A stretch of DNA of 30,631 nucleotides. Source: a virus. Under the pieces are notes generated by a model. It searched no databases. It had not been told where the DNA came from and worked only from the letters and a program-made list of their open reading frames with translations. This document shows positions 8,839 to 30,631 of the stretch, one piece after another; position 1 is the first letter of the stretch; every line of letters begins with the position of its first letter. Where the stretch lies: IMG/VR virus record IMGVR_UViG_3300027833_001225, positions 1 to 30,631 of that record. The stretch is one strand, 5' to 3'. Made by a program: the position numbers and the translations under genes.

Positions 8839-10560
8839 ATGAGTTGGCGCAAACATTTTACACCCTTTGACAATTCGGGTTTACCTTTAAACATTCAGTC
8901 AGGTGCGGATAAAAATGACGGCTCGTTCGGTGCAGCCGCAACAAGTAGATTTAATAGTTGGTTACCAGAAGTATACGCAGGAAGTCCTAATAGACTTATG
9001 CGTTATGTGCAGTATGATCAAATGGATTCGGATCTAGAAGTAAATGCCGCACTAGATACTATTGCAGAATTTGGCACACAAGAAAACGAGTACTCGGGTT
9101 TACCGTTTACTATTGACTTCTTATCGTCACCAAGTGATACAGAAGCAAAAATCATAGATAAAACATTACATAGTTGGGTTAGACTTAACAAGTTACACAA
9201 ACGTGCATTTAGAATGTTCCGTAGTACTTGTAAGTATGGCGATCAGTTTTTTATTAGAGATCCAGAAACATACGAATTGTACTGGGTTGATCCTGCAAAC
9301 ATTGAAAAGGTTGTTGTTAACGAAAGTGAAGGCAAAAAGATAGAGCAATACTTTATCAAAAACCTAGAAGCAAACTTTGCAGAGCAAGTAGCAACAAACG
9401 CAAGTGGACTACATGCAAGACCATATGGTAGTGGACAAGGCCTAACAGGCATAATGAGCCCTACTAATACAGTAAGCAACAATTACTTAACAGGATCAGT
9501 AGATGGTGCAGGCGAAGGCGTACCAGTTGATGCTAAACATGTTGTGCATGTTAGTTTAACAGAAGGCATGGATCATTCATGGCCTTTCGGCGTAAGCATA
9601 CTAGAACCAATTTTTAAAGTGTTCAAGCAGAAAGAATTGCTAGAAGACAGTATTATCATTTATCGTGTACACAGAGCACCTGAAAGACGTGTGTTCTTTA
9701 TTGACGTAGGTAATATGCCAGCCCACAAAGCACAGCAGTACTTAGAACGTGTAAAATACGAAGTACAGCAAAAACGTGTACCTAACAGCAAGGGCGATGG
9801 TAGCAGTGTAACAGACAGTGCATACAATCCAATGAGTATGTTAGAAGATTACTTCTTTGCACAAACAGCAGACGGACGTGGTTCTAAAGTTGATACACTA
9901 CCGGGTGGTGAGAACTTAGGCCAAATAGACGACCTTAGATACTTTAATAACAAACTATTACGTGGTTTGCGTATTCCTGCTAGTTATTTGCCAACAGGAC
10001 CAGACGATGGAAGTGCTACTTACAACGATGGCAAAGTAGGTGTTGCATACATTCAAGAATATAGATTTGCAAAGTATGTTGAAAGACTGCAAAAGCAAGT
10101 ACAAGAAGATTTAGATAGAGAATTTAAACTGTTCCTAAAATACAAAGGCATAGATATTGATAACAGCACATTTAGAATGTTGTTTAACAAGCCAATGAAC
10201 TTTAGTAGTTACAGAGAATTACAACTTAATACAGAACGTGCTCAGATGTTTAATCAAGTTGCAAACTTACCATACATGAGTAAGCGATTCGCTTTACAGA
10301 AGTATATGGGTTTAAGCGACAACGAAATGAAGCAAAACGAAGAGCAGTGGCGTGAAGAGAACGATTATCAGAAATATCAAGATAATGAAAAAGCAGCCGC
10401 ACTTAAGAACATAGGTATTAGACCAGAACCTAATGCCGCAGTTGATTTAGACGCAGAACCAGACCTTTCTGGGCTTGAAGATCCGACATTAGGCGGAGAA
10501 GACATAAATACAACTATAGACAATACAGTTCCACCAGCAGAAGGCGAGGGTTTAGTATAA
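8839..10560 (+). CDS. 20: Portal vertex protein gp20
   Basis: A 573-aa protein, slightly longer than T4 gp20 (524 aa). Recognisable portal features include the N-terminal stretch around NSWLPEVYAGSPNRLMRY, the DLEVNAALDTIAEFGTQ helix, the SILEPIFKVFKQKELLEDS segment, VHRAPERRVFFIDVGNMP, and RIPASYLPTGPDDG. The portal dodecamer forms the DNA entry vertex of the head and the platform for the packaging motor. It heads the head-assembly operon in the T4 order. Its stop overlaps the next start as TAATG. Confidence 0.93.
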   Translation: MSWRKHFTPFDNSGLPLNIQSGADKNDGSFGAAATSRFNSWLPEVYAGSPNRLMRYVQYDQMDSDLEVNAALDTIAEFGTQENEYSGLPFTIDFLSSPSDTEAKIIDKTLHSWVRLNKLHKRAFRMFRSTCKYGDQFFIRDPETYELYWVDPANIEKVVVNESEGKKIEQYFIKNLEANFAEQVATNASGLHARPYGSGQGLTGIMSPTNTVSNNYLTGSVDGAGEGVPVDAKHVVHVSLTEGMDHSWPFGVSILEPIFKVFKQKELLEDSIIIYRVHRAPERRVFFIDVGNMPAHKAQQYLERVKYEVQQKRVPNSKGDGSSVTDSAYNPMSMLEDYFFAQTADGRGSKVDTLPGGENLGQIDDLRYFNNKLLRGLRIPASYLPTGPDDGSATYNDGKVGVAYIQEYRFAKYVERLQKQVQEDLDREFKLFLKYKGIDIDNSTFRMLFNKPMNFSSYRELQLNTERAQMFNQVANLPYMSKRFALQKYMGLSDNEMKQNEEQWREENDYQKYQDNEKAAALKNIGIRPEPNAAVDLDAEPDLSGLEDPTLGGEDINTTIDNTVPPAEGEGLV

Positions 10561-13436: not shown

Positions 13437-14576
13437 ATGGCAAATTTATTTGAAAGCAACTGGTCCGCAACCAAAGAAGCATTGCTTGAAGGTGTTTCTG
13501 GAAACAGAAAATCTTCATTGGATGTGGTCCTCGAAAATACGAAACGCTATTTGTCAGAGGCCGCAACTACAGGTGCAACAGGTGCAGGTTCAGTCGCAAC
13601 TTTAAACAAGGTAATGTTACCTTTAATCAGAAGGGTTATGCCTTCAGTAATAGCTAACGAGCTAGTCGGTGTTCAACCAATGACTGGTCCAGTTGGCCAA
13701 ATACATACACTAAGAGTCCGTTATGCGGAAACTGGTGGTGGTGCAACAGCAGGTGACGAGGCTTTAAGTCCTTTCAAACTTGCTTCAACTTATGCAGGTT
13801 CTCCAGATGCTACAGCAGCAGCTGAAGGTAATCCTGGACGTAAGATGAGCATCCAAATCTTAAAAGAAACAGTGGAAGCTAAGACTAGACGTCTAAGTGC
13901 TCGTTGGACTTTTGAGGCAGCTCAAGATGCAGAATCTATGCACGGCGTTGATGTCGAAGCAGAAATTATGCAGGCTCTAGCTCAGGAAATCGTAGTTGAA
14001 ATCGACCAAGAAATTATCGGTTCATTACGTTCATTAGCAGGTGCTGGTACTACTTTAGACTTTAGTTCTTTAAGTGGTCAATCAGTATACGTTGGTGACA
14101 GACACGCAGCTTTAGCTATTGAAGTTAATAGAGCAGCAAACAGAATCGCAGCAAGAACACGTCGTGGCGCTGGTAACTACATCGTAGTATCTCCAGAAGC
14201 ATTGACAATCTTGCAAAGTGCATCAACTTCAACGTTCGCAAGAACAACTGAAGGTTCTTTTGACGCTCCTACAAACACTAAGTTTGTTGGAACATTAAAC
14301 GGAACAATCAAAGTATTCGTAGACAACTACGCAGCTGACGGTACTAAAGTACTTGTTGGTTACAAAGGTTCAAGCGAGTCAGATGCTCCAGCATTCTACT
14401 GTCCTTATATCCCATTAATGAGCACAGGTCCAGTTATGGATCCTAGCACATTTGAACCAGTAGTTAGCTTTATGACACGTTATGGTTATAAAGAACTAAC
14501 AAACACTGCTTCATCTTTGGGTAACGCAGCAGACTACGTTGACGCAATTACATTGTCCAACATAGCATTCCAGTAA
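13437..14576 (+). CDS. 23: Major capsid protein gp23
   Basis: A 379-aa protein of the gp23 family, shorter than T4's 521 aa but in the range of compact marine relatives. Family-like blocks include LPLIRRVMPSVIANELVGVQPM, RLSARWTFEAAQDAESMHGVD, the YIVVSPEAL segment and the C-terminal YCPYIPLMSTGPVMDPSTFEPVVSFMTRYG. It forms the head shell. A protease site of the L-x-E type occurs at YLSE41-A, so about 40 residues may be removed on maturation. An AGGAG box precedes the ATG and a strong terminator follows the stop. Confidence 0.94.
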   Translation: MANLFESNWSATKEALLEGVSGNRKSSLDVVLENTKRYLSEAATTGATGAGSVATLNKVMLPLIRRVMPSVIANELVGVQPMTGPVGQIHTLRVRYAETGGGATAGDEALSPFKLASTYAGSPDATAAAEGNPGRKMSIQILKETVEAKTRRLSARWTFEAAQDAESMHGVDVEAEIMQALAQEIVVEIDQEIIGSLRSLAGAGTTLDFSSLSGQSVYVGDRHAALAIEVNRAANRIAARTRRGAGNYIVVSPEALTILQSASTSTFARTTEGSFDAPTNTKFVGTLNGTIKVFVDNYAADGTKVLVGYKGSSESDAPAFYCPYIPLMSTGPVMDPSTFEPVVSFMTRYGYKELTNTASSLGNAADYVDAITLSNIAFQ

Positions 14577-14836: not shown

Positions 14837-15484
14837 ATGAAAACTTTATTCAATATAGAGAATGGATTCAAAGCACTAGTAATTATACTATTGTCGATGA
14901 TCGCATTCAATGCCGATGCGGCAAAATGGAGCGGAGAAGCAGGTTATGCAAATGACTATGTATTCCGTGGAATATCTCAAACTCAAGGCGCAAGTTCTGC
15001 TTTCGGATCTATTGATTTAGATTTAGAGAACGGTATTAATGCTGGTGTTTGGGTAGGTCAAGTAGACTTTTCTGGTAGCGATGCTAGTGAAGAAATCTAC
15101 TCTTACATTTCATATAGCAAAACTTTAAGTGATGCTGTATCTGTAAGCGTAGGCTACGGTGATTACACATACGCAGGAGATTCAAGTTTAAATGGATCCG
15201 AGCAGTATATTTCCGTTAATGTAAAAGACTTCGGTCTTACACATGTAATGGGTAATGACACCTACAACGATTATACAAGACTAAGTTATACTGGTTTTGA
15301 TATTGTTGATATAGCATATGGCATGCAAGACGGTGTTGGAGACAATTTAATGTTTTTTAGATCTTTTGATTTACCTTTTGGTGGATTAGAAGGTTCAGTA
15401 GCATATATTGACTTCACTGCTGATGACAGCAGTTTACTACAGGACGAAGACCAGTTTGTCTTTGCTGTAAGTAAATCATTCTAA
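14837..15484 (+). CDS. Outer-membrane porin-like protein (TorF/Gcw_chp family)
   Basis: A 215-aa protein with a signal peptide ending ...MIAFNADA, then the mature start AKWSGEAGYANDYVFRGISQT, the hallmark of the Gcw_chp/TorF putative porin family. Alternating beta-strand sequence runs to a C-terminal Phe (VFAVSKSF), the usual signal for the outer-membrane assembly machinery. An AGGAGG site lies 6 bp before the ATG. The gene stands alone between two strong terminators with its own sigma-70 promoter, a cassette layout typical of a moron. A role in changing the host surface (superinfection exclusion, receptor masking, nutrient uptake) is inference. Confidence 0.8.
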   Translation: MKTLFNIENGFKALVIILLSMIAFNADAAKWSGEAGYANDYVFRGISQTQGASSAFGSIDLDLENGINAGVWVGQVDFSGSDASEEIYSYISYSKTLSDAVSVSVGYGDYTYAGDSSLNGSEQYISVNVKDFGLTHVMGNDTYNDYTRLSYTGFDIVDIAYGMQDGVGDNLMFFRSFDLPFGGLEGSVAYIDFTADDSSLLQDEDQFVFAVSKSF

Positions 15485-25706: not shown

Positions 25707-26003
25707 ATGAACGAGATTTTTGGATTTATAGGAGAGGTAGGAGCACCAATTGCTGGCAGTCTAGTAATGGGTTTCTTTATATTCTTAGTAATCAAACAAA
25801 TACTCGAAGGAGTCGTAGGCCAAGTAAAAACACTTACAATTTTTTGTAAGAGTTTAGAAAACCGTGCATCTACTATGTCAAACGAAATGATAAAGATTGA
25901 CATGTTAGTAAGCAGTGCATTAGATTTACGACCAGACATAGAACGTATTGCTAGAGCAGAAAACTTTGTAGAAGAAGGCAAAGTGGACGTGAGGAGAGAC
26001 TAA
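25707..26003 (+). CDS. Small membrane-anchored coiled-coil protein
   Basis: A 98-aa protein with one membrane segment (about residues 12-32, APIAGSLVMGFFIFLVIKQIL), then a polar helix to the C-terminus. It has the general look of small phage holin-like or anchor proteins, but no family is certain. It is first in the curli operon, after a GGCGGAG ribosome site, and its stop overlaps the next start as TAATG. The 100-aa protein two genes on has the same layout, so the pair may be distant copies. Confidence 0.6.
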   Translation: MNEIFGFIGEVGAPIAGSLVMGFFIFLVIKQILEGVVGQVKTLTIFCKSLENRASTMSNEMIKIDMLVSSALDLRPDIERIARAENFVEEGKVDVRRD

Positions 26004-26207: not shown

Positions 26208-26510
26208 ATGGAAGAGATTGTCAACGCAATAAACGACTATGGATTCCCAGTAGTAATGAGTGTTGGCCTAGGATATTTTGTGTATTACATTTGGTGGTTT
26301 ATTGGAGAAAAGATAGACCCAGCATTAGAAGAAATGCACATGGCTTTAATTAAAGTAATAGATAAAACTCGCATGCTAGATCAAGACTTGATCAGACTAC
26401 AACAAAAAGTAAATGTCGTATTAGAATATAAAGCAAAAGAACAAATTATTAAGGACGCACAGAACACAGAGCTTTTAAAAAACATAGAGGAAGGATTAAC
26501 ACATGATTGA
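26208..26510 (+). CDS. Second small membrane-anchored coiled-coil protein
   Basis: A 100-aa protein with a membrane segment at about residues 13-33 (FPVVMSVGLGYFVYYIWWFIG), followed by a long charged helix. It resembles the 98-aa protein in length, an M-x-EI start, a G-x-P before the membrane segment and a helical tail. It overlaps the csgF start by eight bases (ATGATTGA). It may assist export, form a holin-like pore or anchor the curli apparatus to the inner membrane; none of these can be chosen from sequence. Confidence 0.6.
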   Translation: MEEIVNAINDYGFPVVMSVGLGYFVYYIWWFIGEKIDPALEEMHMALIKVIDKTRMLDQDLIRLQQKVNVVLEYKAKEQIIKDAQNTELLKNIEEGLTHD

Positions 26511-27027
26511 TAACAAACACAAAGATACACCTTTACTAGTTTTAGGTTATATCTTGTTAGGTATGATAGTACTGCTATCTACTACCGCAACTGCAGATTC
26601 ATTAACGCACAAATTTAAGAATCCTAGTTTTAGTGGTATTGGAACTGGAGCACATTACCTAACGATAGAAAATCAAGAAAGAACTCGTAGGCAAAAGATC
26701 AAAGACGATATTGAATCAGCTTTAAAGCAAGCAGAACGAGAAGACTCGAACAGCACAATTAACAAATTCATTAGAAATTTAGAGAGCAGAATATACGCCC
26801 AAATCTCTAAGGGATTAGTTGACAGCATGTTTTGTGATCCAGCTACTGTAGTAGAGTGTACGGGTTCAGACTCAGGCGACTTTACAATTGAAGGTAATAA
26901 TGTAAGTTACCAAATAGTTATATCTGACGATGGATTAGAAGTAATGAGACTTACTATTGTTTCTCCAGACGGCACAATAACTGAGATAGAGATACCGATC
27001 GGCATCGGCAGCATTGGCGGCGGGTAA
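26503..27027 (+). CDS. csgF: CsgF-like curli assembly protein
   Basis: A 174-aa protein with an N-terminal signal/anchor (LLVLGYILLGMIVLLSTTATA). The predicted mature start DSLTHKFKNPSFSG matches the CsgF signature (E. coli FQFRNPNFGG), the segment that plugs into the CsgG pore. The C-terminal beta part (YQIVISDDGLEVMRLTIVSPDG) also fits CsgF. In curli systems CsgF couples the secretion pore to nucleation of the fibre. The middle is longer than in E. coli CsgF (138 aa) and includes a charged helix. The residue matching E. coli N17 is Thr or a gap. It directly precedes csgG with TAATG overlap. Confidence 0.85.
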   Translation: MIDNKHKDTPLLVLGYILLGMIVLLSTTATADSLTHKFKNPSFSGIGTGAHYLTIENQERTRRQKIKDDIESALKQAEREDSNSTINKFIRNLESRIYAQISKGLVDSMFCDPATVVECTGSDSGDFTIEGNNVSYQIVISDDGLEVMRLTIVSPDGTITEIEIPIGIGSIGGG

Positions 27028-27980
27028 TGATGAAGTATTTAGGAATCGCACTTCTATGTGTAGGCTTCTTGTCAGGCTGTGCAAGCATGGCTCTACCTGG
27101 CGACAAAAACTGCACCACTGATTTCCTCCAATGCATCGAAGAACCAAAAGAAGTAGAATTACCTACATTCAAAAAATTACGACAGTTACCACCGGCTGAA
27201 ACAAGACCGATTGTAGCAGTTTATCAATTTGCCGACTTAACTGGACAACGTTTAAGTTCTGGCGGAGCGGCTAGTTTTAGCACAGCCGTAACACAAGGTG
27301 CTAAAGCCTTACTAATAGACGCACTCAAAGCAGCAGGCGCTGATTCAGACCCGCAGGGTACTTGGTTCAGAGTTGTTGAAAGAGGTCTGGGTCTAGACAA
27401 TCTTGTCCGAGAGCGACAAATAATTCGTAGCACACGTGATAGTTATGCTACTGAGAAAGCTCCGCCACAAGATGTACAACCATTATTATTTGCAGGAGTG
27501 ATACTAGAGGGTGGCGTTATTGGCTACGACTCTAATATTGAGACTGGCGGTAACGGTGCTCGATACCTAGGTATTGGCACAACTAATGAATATAGGCGTG
27601 ACAGTGTTGTAGTTTCGCTTAGAGCAGTTAGTGTACTTACTGGCGAAGTGATATTAAACGTACAGACATACAAAACTATTCTCAGTGTTGGGATGGGTGG
27701 TGACGTATTTAAATTCCTTGATATGGATACGCGACTACTTGAAATTGAGAGTGGTATGACAGAGAATGAAAGTGTAACTTGGGGTGTTAGATCAGCGATC
27801 GAAGCAGCCGTTTATGCTCTCATCGAACAAGGAGATGAAAGAGGTTTCTGGAAAATAAACTACCCATTAGAGTTGGGTAACACTACAACAGGTACTATCG
27901 ACGGTACTGACACAGATTTAGAAACGGGTAATGAGCCCTCTGATAGCCAATTGGCTTTAGAGGATAATGAGAATGATTAA
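27027..27980 (+). CDS. csgG: CsgG-like curli secretion pore lipoprotein
   Basis: A 317-aa protein with a lipobox LSGC at residues 15-18. CsgG landmarks include VAVYQFADLTGQ, FSTAVTQGAKALLIDAL, the ERGLGLDNLVRERQIIR helix, the GGVIGYDSNIETGGNGARYLGIG strand region, TGEVILNVQTYKTILS and the SAIEAAVYALIEQGDERGFW helix. CsgG forms the nonameric outer-membrane channel for curlin export. The constriction loop differs from E. coli: the YPASNF motif is replaced by roughly GGAASF, keeping Phe56 but not Tyr51 or Asn55. The last 35 residues are an acidic Thr/Asp/Glu tail. ATG at 27030 is an equally good start. Confidence 0.92.
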   Translation: MMKYLGIALLCVGFLSGCASMALPGDKNCTTDFLQCIEEPKEVELPTFKKLRQLPPAETRPIVAVYQFADLTGQRLSSGGAASFSTAVTQGAKALLIDALKAAGADSDPQGTWFRVVERGLGLDNLVRERQIIRSTRDSYATEKAPPQDVQPLLFAGVILEGGVIGYDSNIETGGNGARYLGIGTTNEYRRDSVVVSLRAVSVLTGEVILNVQTYKTILSVGMGGDVFKFLDMDTRLLEIESGMTENESVTWGVRSAIEAAVYALIEQGDERGFWKINYPLELGNTTTGTIDGTDTDLETGNEPSDSQLALEDNEND

Positions 27981-27999
27981 TCATAAAATGGAGAATAAA

Positions 28000-28797
28000 A
28001 TGAAGACTTTTTCGAGCAAGTTATTTGCAGGTGTCTTCGCTACGGTTTGCTTTTTTACTGGTAATTTAGCTAGTGCTGATAATGAAGTATTGATCGATCA
28101 AATAGGTGACAACTTAACTTTAACTGTGTTACAAGCCGGTTATGGAAACAGTTTGTCCGGCGATACAAGTCAGGGAACTGATCTAACTTTAACAGGTGGA
28201 TCATTAATCATTGACCTTATACAAGATGGTAATCTTAACGAAACTTTTGGTTCGTGGGTACTTGACGGTTCGGGTTCAAGTGTGATTGACTTATATTTCC
28301 AAGGCGATAGTAATATTTGGGATATGAATATTGGTGCTACAGGCAGTGGTGACTATACTGACATCTTATCAAACATAATAGGTTCTAGTAACTTATTTGA
28401 TATAGATATTGGTGGAAACGCAGTTGCTGAAAGTACAAATATGGATCTTTACATACTAGGTGATAGAAATGACTTTTCAACAAGTTTTACTAACAGCAAA
28501 GTATGGGCAGCAGGTGGTTCAGTTAATAATAGTACTGGTACACAGACCATGGCAGGCATAGTTATAGATTCAAGCAACAATATTTGGAACTTTGATGTTA
28601 CAGGCGACGACAATGCATTCGCAACAAAACAGGCAAGCAATGACGGTAATAGCATGACAGTAGAACTCATGGGTTCAGATGGAGACTTCCAGCTGATACA
28701 GAACATGACATCTACATGTACACCAGCATGTGCTGGAGTTATCAATTTAGATATTGATAGTGAAAATGCATCAGTCAGTGTTGTTCAGCAAGACTAA
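28000..28797 (+). CDS. Curlin-repeat protein (CsgA/CsgB-like)
   Basis: A 265-aa protein from the ATG at 28000, chosen because a GGAG box lies 6 bp upstream and the signal peptide then fits (MKTFSSKLFAGVFATVCFF...LASA). An in-frame start at 27967 exists but adds an unlikely leader. The mature part has degenerate curlin repeats of the Q-x-G-x-N type: LIDQIGDNLTLTVLQAGYGN, LIQDGNLN, YFQGDSN, ILGDRND, VTGDDNAF, LMGSDGDFQLIQ. It ends SVSVVQQD. Curlins are secreted through CsgG and self-assemble into amyloid fibres. The spacing and length are less regular than E. coli CsgA (151 aa), so fibre formation is inference. Confidence 0.8.
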   Translation: MKTFSSKLFAGVFATVCFFTGNLASADNEVLIDQIGDNLTLTVLQAGYGNSLSGDTSQGTDLTLTGGSLIIDLIQDGNLNETFGSWVLDGSGSSVIDLYFQGDSNIWDMNIGATGSGDYTDILSNIIGSSNLFDIDIGGNAVAESTNMDLYILGDRNDFSTSFTNSKVWAAGGSVNNSTGTQTMAGIVIDSSNNIWNFDVTGDDNAFATKQASNDGNSMTVELMGSDGDFQLIQNMTSTCTPACAGVINLDIDSENASVSVVQQD

Positions 28798-29938
28798 GTG
28801 GCTTTTGCTACTTAGTTGCATTGCAACAAGTTCAATAAATGCCGCTGAAAATATCGGCGGCATACTTGAACAATCTGGTTCCGTAGGTAAAATATCTAGA
28901 ACAACTGGAGAAACTTTACAAGCAGAATTACAGACAGACATTGTTAGTATGGACGAGGTAGAAACTGCTAACGGTAGATTAAAGATTAAATTTATAGACG
29001 ATACGCAAGTTAGTCTAACAGAAAATACATACATGGAAATTAACGAGTATGTGTTTGACCCAGACCCTAATAAAAGCAGGATGGCTTTAAATTTTGTGTC
29101 AGGAACAGCAAGATTTGCAACAGGCGGATTAGGACTTGTAGCAAGAGAGAATATAACAATACAAACTCCCACAGCCAGTATAGGCATAAGGGGAACAGAT
29201 TTTACTACCACAGTTGATGAACTAGGTAGAAGTTTGGTAATATTATTACCAGACGAAGATTGCACAGATAGAGTAGCACTAGAAGAAGGGTGTGCTCCGA
29301 GTGGAAGTATAACAGTTACTAACGCAGGTGGTACGCAAGTATTAGACGAAGCGTACCAAGCAGTAATGGTAAGCACATTTGAAACTATACCTACTGCACC
29401 TGTTAAACTAGTAAACTTAGATTTAAATATGATAGACAATATGTTTATTGTAAGTGAGCCAGCAGAAATTACCGAAGCAGAAGAAGAGCAAGCATCAGAA
29501 TTAAAAGGCGGTGGCGGAATGCTAGACTTTGACGGACTAGATCAAGACTTTTTAGATACTGCTACACTAGATGATAATACAGCAAACAATTATGAATTTA
29601 GCGAATTAGACATTGACTTTTTAGATGTAGAATTCTTAAACGATTTGCTAGATGTGCTAAGTGATGATATAGATTCACTAGCAGAAGAAAATACAGCCGC
29701 AGGTGGTGATAGACTAATTGGAACAAAGTTCGGTAACGATCCAGAGACACAGTTTAATACATTTCCTGACTATGATGGCAAAGTGTTTTTTCTTAGACAA
29801 GTTGGAAACAAAGTAGGAATAAAATTAGCACAAGGTGCAAAGGCACGAATTACTATATATGACGATGATACAGGAGAAACTTTGTTATGCTTGAACAGTT
29901 GTGATGGCGTATACATAAGTATTACACAAAATGATTAA
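28766..29938 (+). CDS. Exported FecR-domain protein
   Basis: A 390-aa protein. The ATG at 28766 lies in the last 32 bases of the curlin gene and is followed by a signal peptide (SKTKWLLLLSCIATSSINA). Residues of about 25-170 carry a FecR-type domain: GSVGKISRTTGETLQ, NGRLKIKFIDDTQVSLTENTYMEINEY, and ENITIQTPTASIGIRGTDFTTTV. The rest is acidic, with repeated DFLDT/DFLDVEFLND-like elements, and a C-terminal beta domain with two Cys. FecR domains occur in envelope signalling and in exported structural proteins. A sensor, anchor or cap of the curlin fibre is possible; the operon position between two curlins favours an extracellular role. Confidence 0.75.
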   Translation: MHQSVLFSKTKWLLLLSCIATSSINAAENIGGILEQSGSVGKISRTTGETLQAELQTDIVSMDEVETANGRLKIKFIDDTQVSLTENTYMEINEYVFDPDPNKSRMALNFVSGTARFATGGLGLVARENITIQTPTASIGIRGTDFTTTVDELGRSLVILLPDEDCTDRVALEEGCAPSGSITVTNAGGTQVLDEAYQAVMVSTFETIPTAPVKLVNLDLNMIDNMFIVSEPAEITEAEEEQASELKGGGGMLDFDGLDQDFLDTATLDDNTANNYEFSELDIDFLDVEFLNDLLDVLSDDIDSLAEENTAAGGDRLIGTKFGNDPETQFNTFPDYDGKVFFLRQVGNKVGIKLAQGAKARITIYDDDTGETLLCLNSCDGVYISITQND

Positions 29939-30631
29939 GAACATATTAAATAAAATAACAGGTACGCATCTAGGAATACTAGTTATAGTAATGTTCTTTA
30001 CAGCACAGGCATGTTATGCACAAGACAATGTACTAACAATGACTCAGCAAGGGGACAATGTTATTATAGACGTTTTACAAGCAGGATACAATAACAGTAT
30101 AGATGTTGATTTAGGATTAAGTGGATTTGATGCCAGCAATGAATTTGAAGTAAAACAAGACGGCAATGACAACGATGTCTTTTTAAGTATAGGCGGAAAT
30201 ACTAACAGTCTAATTTTTTATCAGAAAGGTGCTAAAAACACAATCGGCTGGACAGACACTTGGGGTAGCGGATTAAATTGGGGTGGAGACTTAGACGGTG
30301 ATAATAACAATATTATGATTAAACAGTACACTGACACTGGTAAAAATATAGCAGATAACTACTTTGGCTTCCACATACAAGGCGATAATAATAATGTAAA
30401 AGGTGGACAAGGCTATTTCATAAACAGTAACACAGGTTCTTATAGCCAAGGACAAGGGTGGGGTGATAATTATATGAGATTAGATATCCATGGTGATAGC
30501 AATGATGTAATAACCACACAAAGAACTGATGCCGCAAATAATGGAGCAACAGCCTATGTAAATGTGTACGCAGATCTCAATGATTTGTATGTGCAACAAC
30601 GACAAGGCGCTCACACATTAAACTTAACTAT
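29931..30631 (+). CDS. Second curlin-repeat protein, 3' end missing
   Basis: ATG at 29931 overlaps the FecR gene stop (ATGATTAA), the same join type as at csgF. A signal peptide (GILVIVMFFTAQACYA) is followed by curlin-type repeats: MTQQGDNVIIDVLQAGYNNSIDV, VKQDGNDND, IGGNTNSLIFYQKGAKNTI, IQGDNNNVKG, IHGDSNDVITTQ, YVQQRQGAH. The repeats match the Q-x-G-x-N pattern better than those of the first curlin, with more Asn, so this may be the main subunit and the first the nucleator, or the reverse. The frame is still open at the window end after 233 codons. Confidence 0.82.
   Translation, partial: MIKNILNKITGTHLGILVIVMFFTAQACYAQDNVLTMTQQGDNVIIDVLQAGYNNSIDVDLGLSGFDASNEFEVKQDGNDNDVFLSIGGNTNSLIFYQKGAKNTIGWTDTWGSGLNWGGDLDGDNNNIMIKQYTDTGKNIADNYFGFHIQGDNNNVKGGQGYFINSNTGSYSQGQGWGDNYMRLDIHGDSNDVITTQRTDAANNGATAYVNVYADLNDLYVQQRQGAHTLNLT

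Follow-up and report, generated by a model that had tools for sequence, protein, structure and literature searches.

The window, i.e. the whole stretch of DNA that we analysed (30,631 nucleotides, 30.6 kb), is part of the genome of a T4-like phage. Its portal and capsid proteins match phrog_213 and phrog_138, respectively, and it also encodes a T4-type baseplate protein. At the end of the window csgF, csgG, a first curlin-like gene (curlin 1), fecR and a second curlin-like gene (curlin 2) lie in a row on one strand, as listed in Table 1. The csgG product matches Pfam CsgG at 153.6 bits (cut-off 20.8), and the translated protein carries the lipobox LSGC. Its predicted structure, a monomer with mean pLDDT 74.2 and about 60 in the eyelet loop, has the CsgG fold, with Z 18.8 to the E. 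coli structure 7brm over 237 residues (rmsd 6.0) and Z 18.5 to another E. coli structure, 4uv3. This fold is common to the E. coli CsgG-CsgF structures (4uv3, 6l7a, 6si7 and 7brm; Z about 18), and the sequence identity to 4uv3 and 7brm is 38-39%. An adjacent csgF is the mark that tells a curli CsgG from the CsgG paralogues, and the gene immediately upstream of the window csgG is csgF (PF10614). Two small proteins encoded upstream of csgF (25707-26003 and 26208-26510) both match the unnamed phrog_18771. Elsewhere in the window, a Gcw_chp-family protein (14837-15484) and a weak cytochrome c match (1025-2308) represent probable auxiliary genes.

Table 1. Features of the curli locus and their positions in the window.
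Feature	Position	Strand	Basis or remark
csgF, phage-type	26503..27027	+	Pfam PF10614 3.3e-12; phrog_35372 2.3e-41
CsgF second-constriction turn SGIGTG, residues 44-49	26632..26649	+	54 viral and 88 bacterial CsgF aligned
csgG, probable outer-membrane curli secretion channel	27027..27980	+	Pfam PF03783 5.8e-45; phrog_20175 5.7e-67
CsgG C-loop (eyelet) QRLSSGGAASFST, residues 74-86	27246..27284	+	phmmer alignment to E. coli CsgG chains
Arg75 of CsgG (= E. coli Phe48)	27249..27251	+	Arg throughout phage-type CsgG counted
Gly79 of CsgG, opposite E. coli Tyr51	27261..27263	+	Asp in nearest relatives
Ser83-Phe84 of CsgG, opposite E. coli Asn55-Phe56	27273..27278	+	
Curlin-like repeat protein 1	27967..28797	+	likely cargo; predicted beta-solenoid
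FecR-domain protein	28754..29938	+	Pfam FecR 1.8e-10; phrog_37870 1.7e-61
Curlin-like repeat protein 2	29931..30629	+	open-ended ORF, runs off contig

The eyelet of the window CsgG differs from that of E. coli, whose C-loop spans residues 47-58 (PMC9245180). In the phmmer alignment G79-G80-A81-A82-S83-F84 of the window pair with Y51-P52-A53-S54-N55-F56, and the window loop QRLSSGGAASFSTAV is one residue longer than the E. coli QF-KPYPASNFSTAV, the extra residue sitting earlier in the loop than the '51'-'56' stretch. The preliminary description had reported Tyr51 changed to Gly, Asn55 to Ser, Phe56 retained and a one-residue insertion, all of which are borne out by this alignment; in place of the Tyr51, Asn55 and Phe56 rings of the E. 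coli-type eyelet the window has Gly, Ser and Phe. Of these assignments, Phe56 and the insertion are secure, and the residue at '51' hinges on where the gap is placed. The MAFFT gap falls elsewhere than that of phmmer, and residues were therefore counted backwards from Phe56. Position '51' is Asp in the window's own clade (L002, L003, L004, L007 and L008) and Gly in the window alone, through one change of the GAC-to-GGC type. Judged from the aligned loops, this Gly is the sole window-specific feature of the eyelet.

We compared the loop across viral and bacterial CsgG. The viral sequences came from 80 contigs (the best 80 of 109 relatives), the window and the phages HTVC008M and Melnitz, and the genome-derived ones from the best 80 of 289 contigs and from family searches in SAR11, Gammaproteobacteria, Alphaproteobacteria and Bacteroidota; both best-80 sets are biased towards the window. 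Among 166 genome-derived CsgG-like loci, 51 were dropped for having no csgF or no loop match; these are largely paralogues, and csgF lies perhaps past the locus edge in L119, L165, L237, L239 and L244. Eighteen genome-derived loci were separated out as phage-type before the bacterial counts. There remained 56 distinct viral CsgG and 91 distinct bacterial CsgG with an adjacent csgF.

The longer (9-residue) loop is present in 56/56 viral and 84/91 bacterial CsgG of these sets. Tyr at '51' occurs in none of the viral or bacterial CsgG listed (0/56 and 0/91), and Asp or Glu is the usual residue there (45/56 and 70/91). At '55' the viral CsgG listed have Asp (17), Ser (15), Asn (11), Gln (7), Leu (5) or Lys (1), and the bacterial ones Thr (47), Ser (24), Glu (9), Asn (5) or others (6). 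Position '56' is hydrophobic throughout the listed sequences, being Phe in 36 and Leu in 20 of the 56 viral CsgG, and Leu in 48, Phe in 16, Tyr in 16 and Trp in 11 of the 91 bacterial ones. Ser55 and Phe56 occur together in 6/91 bacterial CsgG listed, two of them from Pseudomonas (e.g. APASSF), and the chromosomal CsgG homologue of Hyphomonas TMED17 has the loop AGVSSF; the complete Gly/Ser/Phe triple of the window is found in 0/91 among the bacterial matches listed. The motif PYPASNF was seen, among the sequences examined, in E. coli K-12 and in the Salmonella-type csgG of OR851715. The latter record (OR851715.1, L265; 1,499 bases, labelled Salmonella phage S.Kent 1-2-1) holds an enterobacterial-type csgG and is probably host DNA contamination.

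The preliminary description had proposed such a comparison as a check on its suggestion that the loss of Tyr51 and Asn55 would give a pore that is wider and suits another cargo, or that leaks, and bacteria with the same kind of loop were indeed found. It is true that the eyelet residues differ from those of E. coli, and that Gly at '51' is unusual (1/56 viral and 2/91 bacterial CsgG listed). However, the bacterial homologues listed never have Tyr51, rarely have Asn55 and mostly have the longer loop, and the window retains the hydrophobic ring at position 56. With E. coli being the outlier, the inference from its Tyr51 and Asn55 to an altered pore fails, and we consider a wider or leaky channel improbable. 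The alignments indicate that the window eyelet is family-typical and of the non-E. coli type, E. coli being the exception, and that it is probably neither damaged nor specially widened. Two distinct phage-type CsgG, one from L100/L169 (one contig) and the other from L094, have a loop four residues shorter (TGQRKQVGLSTAV); if any phage-type pore were widened, these would be better candidates than the window.

A different residue of the loop separates the phage-type CsgG from the bacterial ones. We scanned 227 alignment columns for a residue found in at least 90% of the viral and at most 5% of the bacterial CsgG, and two columns passed, i.e. window Arg75 (E. coli Phe48) and Thr235 (E. coli Gln197); the chance that at least one of two separating columns falls in the 13-residue loop is 0.11. 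Arg at '48' is present in 56/56 viral CsgG and in 13/13 phage-type CsgG on genome-labelled contigs, hence in 69/69 of these sets, and in 0/91 of the bacterial CsgG listed, which have Phe, Tyr, Asn, Leu or His instead. In a further sample of 22 Hyphomonadaceae loci (105 genomes), 21 have Phe at '48' and only Hyphomonas TMED17 has Arg. The mean charge of the eyelet loop is +1.4 in viruses versus +0.16 in bacteria, with the window and E. coli both at +1. The phage clade being one lineage, Arg75 may reflect a single inherited event. No paper on CsgG Phe48 (F48) was found in the literature searched.

The second constriction, formed by CsgF, departs from E. coli as well. The CsgF alignment took in 54/56 viral and 88/91 bacterial sequences of the sets compared above. 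The earlier observation that CsgF Asn17 is changed holds, as Thr48 (26644-26646) aligns with it; the neighbouring E. coli Asn18 is deleted in the window CsgF. Among the viral CsgF listed, the residue at E. coli 18 is missing in 54/54, Gly stands at 16 in 54/54, and position 17 is Thr, Tyr or Gln in 51/54; in the 88 bacterial sequences listed, position 17 is Phe in 63 and Asn in none. Mutant data given in PMC6957492 indicate that E. coli CsgF N17Y keeps curli formation, N17D reduces it, N17F nearly abolishes it and N17R loses the phenotype. By these data Phe at 17, the bacterial majority residue, should not work in E. coli, a further sign that the E. coli numbering is not transferable. The same source gives F7D and F12D of E. 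coli as abolishing CsgF-CsgG binding. F38 and F43 of the window CsgF correspond to F7 and F12, and the equivalents are retained in 54/54 viral CsgF listed; the window CsgF has thus kept two of the three Phe at which mutations abolish CsgG binding, and the CsgG-CsgF pair would be expected to form, going by the E. coli mutants.

Compared with E. coli, then, the window shares Phe56 and the CsgF residues F7 and F12, but lacks Tyr51, Asn55, Phe48 and the CsgF residues Asn17 and Asn18. Since Tyr51 and CsgF Asn17 were not found, and Asn55 was found in few, of the other bacterial curli systems surveyed, the departure from E. coli Tyr51, Asn55 and CsgF Asn17 gives no information on function. Among the sequences compared, by contrast, the phage-type pores are set apart from the bacterial ones by Arg at '48' and by their shortened CsgF turn. 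The alphaproteobacterial curli systems (Sphingomonas, Hyphomonadaceae, Pseudovibrio) resemble the window in their longer loop and in having no Tyr51. Their CsgG, unlike that of the window, usually has Leu or Tyr at '56' and Phe or Tyr at '48', and their CsgF has a turn one residue longer than the window's, usually with Phe at '17'.

The genes downstream of csgG point to a curlin cargo. Of the viral loci listed, all those with 1.2 kb or more beyond csgG have a curlin-like ORF adjoining it (73/73). Where 2.2 kb is available, a FecR motif is present in 51/60 loci, and where 3.4 kb is available, a second curlin in 44/57. Window curlin 1 contains nine degenerate curlin repeats versus 1.0 in shuffled sequences (0/2000 as high), and window curlin 2 three strict Q.G..N repeats versus 0.25 (1/2000). 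The Pfam Curlin_rpt match of curlin 1 (0.074) does not reach the cut-off, and curlin 2 has no Pfam match. The repeat Q, G and N are among the invariant positions when 27 first curlins, chosen from loci having one, are aligned. The model of curlin 1 is a row of repeated strand pairs, and its matches are generic beta-helices, with no curlin among the 50 listed. Curlin 1 has a net charge of -30 over 239 residues. The viral first curlins average -12.9 charges per 100 residues (52 distinct, among the matches listed), bacterial curlin-like ORFs -5.9 (127, from 66/91 loci listed) and E. coli CsgA -4.6. Other proteins of the window are also acidic, i.e. FecR (-10.9) and ORF 14837 (-9.8), and the acidity of the curlin cargo may be partly general. 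The preliminary description had also suggested a differently gated channel with another cargo. Its basis in Tyr51 and Asn55 does not stand, while Arg75, the shortened CsgF turn and the adjacent, very acidic and divergent curlin lend it some support. No match to CsgE (PF10627) was found in the window, which is a partial record. PMC3521004 reports csgE as absent from all Alphaproteobacteria surveyed, so the window's lack of a match need not indicate a defective system.

A tree of 77 CsgG places 28 viral and 12 phage-type genome-contig sequences against 37 bacterial ones, E. coli included, with branch support 100/100. Five candidate bacterial CsgG loci (L083-L087) were excluded from the bacterial counts, since each of them groups with the phages in this tree and the contigs of L085 and L086 carry a T4-type capsid gene. 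These two (C58 and C79 of genome G004) are phage contigs binned in a Sphingobacteriales metagenome-assembled genome. Several of the genome-labelled phage-type members are misbinned phage, i.e. two contigs with a capsid gene and two with terminase genes. In Hyphomonas TMED17, a phage-type csgF-csgG-curlin-fecR module (L088 3483-7468) lies on a 705-kb contig; its curlin was called from the repeats and has no Pfam match, its CsgF is also phage-type, and the neighbouring genes encode FAA hydrolase and lactone oxidase domains. No T4-type capsid gene was found in the Hyphomonas TMED17 genome, and the module looks chromosomal. The other 21 csgG loci sampled in Hyphomonadaceae are of the ordinary alphaproteobacterial type. 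Hyphomonas TMED17 could be either a donor to phages or a recipient from them.

The CsgG matches in SAR11 gave no reading of the host. PF03783 matched in 5/297 SAR11 family genomes. All three strong matches are of the phage type: the first sits on a contig of 3,066 bases, and the contigs of the second and third carry terminase genes, in one case also portal and endolysin genes. The remaining two matches are weak. As for the carrier, the window capsid (13437-14576) is 68% and the portal (8839-10560) about 55% identical to those of PA5oct-like Pseudomonas phages, and the capsid is 40% and 38% identical to those of HTVC008M and Melnitz, respectively. As the capsid is nearest to the PA5oct-like phages, the module is carried by at least one lineage besides the Kyanoviridae pelagimyophages. 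The PA5oct-like phages are roughly 290 kb, and judging by these identities a large marine phage is a possible source of the window. Among 20 curli-bearing viral contigs compared with the window, capsid identity is 86% in three and 36-39% (best piece) in four; thirteen gave no capsid match, many of the contigs being fragments. A search for CsgG and curli together with 'jumbo phage' found no paper in the incomplete literature collection searched. Phage curli modules have already been published, and the carrier of the window looks like a further lineage.

The pelagimyophages HTVC008M and Melnitz (Kyanoviridae) offer the closest comparison among the known systems considered. Their CsgG are 43-46% identical to the window's, and both phages share with the window Arg at '48' and a phage-type CsgF, but differ from it at '56' (Leu, against Phe in the window) and at '55' (Gln, against Ser). 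The annotation of Melnitz gives the order csgF-csgG-curlin-FecR-curlin as in the window, and that of HTVC008M gives CsgF, CsgG, a curlin-associated protein, hypothetical proteins and a cyclase. In Melnitz (L264 5857-8651) two proteins are annotated in GenBank as curlin-associated repeat proteins, although PMC9004378 states that Melnitz lacks csgA and csgB; PMC9599517 reports CsgA/B in both phage types. The latter also describes the module of the HTVC023P-type podophages, a different phage type from the window, as CsgF, CsgG, CsgA/B-like, FecR, second curlin and adenylate cyclase. Two phage contigs binned with SAR11-family genomes (L171/L172) have Arg at '48' and branch apart from the window clade; our guess is that they are of the HTVC023P type.

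The csgG gene is under purifying selection, with dN/dS of 0.085-0.17 in the six of eight comparisons with relatives where it was computable, which argues for a pore in use; csgF has dN/dS of 0.07-0.20 in the five of eight that were computable. We regard it as likely that the phage carries a type VIII (curli) secretion module at this locus, with a working pore, an acidic curlin and an arginine-lined eyelet, and without CsgE. CsgG would form an outer-membrane pore, presumably a nonamer, with CsgF seated in its barrel, and the adjacent curlin would be exported through the two, in unfolded form, to the cell surface. The eyelet would then present nine arginines, one per subunit, where nine aromatic residues usually stand, and the CsgF turn would be shortened, with Gly and Thr, Tyr or Gln. 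Such an arginine gate and short turn could fit a strongly acidic cargo, and curlin export may be independent of CsgE as in the Alphaproteobacteria, a class in which PMC3521004 reports no CsgE among the members surveyed. A phage might benefit through the aggregation or shielding of infected cells.

Two published proposals assign other roles to the phage pore. Pinholins and holins are small inner-membrane proteins with transmembrane helices that control lysis, and a lipobox of the kind seen here is typical of outer-membrane lipoproteins. The window CsgG is a 317-residue CsgG-fold protein with such a lipobox, which speaks against a lysis-timing pore (pinholin- or secretin-like) that has lost curlin export. 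Buchholz et al. proposed this role for Melnitz on the strength of monomer models with a narrowed barrel and of a divergent CsgF (PMC9004378), and the absence of CsgE from the window, a partial record, would agree with it. But the Melnitz argument needs csgA and csgB to be missing, whereas two genes next to csgG in its GenBank entry bear the annotation 'curlin associated repeat protein'. Moreover, a curlin-like gene follows csgG in all 73 testable viral loci listed, and CsgF still has two of the three Phe needed for CsgG binding. We consider a lysis-timing pore very improbable. PMC7029224 and PMC9599517 suggest instead an ungated channel through which siderophores, cofactors or other molecules enter during infection, and the window, partial as it is, shows no CsgE cap. 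This nutrient-uptake role leaves the co-conserved CsgF and curlin genes unexplained, and we give it slightly less credence still. For curlin secretion, a role of the fibres in sibling capture or superinfection shielding is speculation in the published literature (PMC7029224 and PMC9599517), and according to Buchholz et al. (PMC9004378) no clumping was observed in Melnitz cultures.

We speculate, with considerable doubt, that the Arg-48 ring and the shortened Gly/Thr or Gly/Tyr turn of CsgF might act as a CsgE-independent, charge-matched double gate for very acidic curlins, and that such pores, including the one on the Hyphomonas TMED17 chromosome, might be a distinct functional class. CsgG underlies commercial nanopores, and natural variants of its eyelet are of practical interest. 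Arg at '48', the shortened CsgF turn and the acidic cargo together provide a testable marker of phage-type curli pores, and the conserved curlin-like gene beside the phage-type csgG weighs against cargo-free lysis-pore models.
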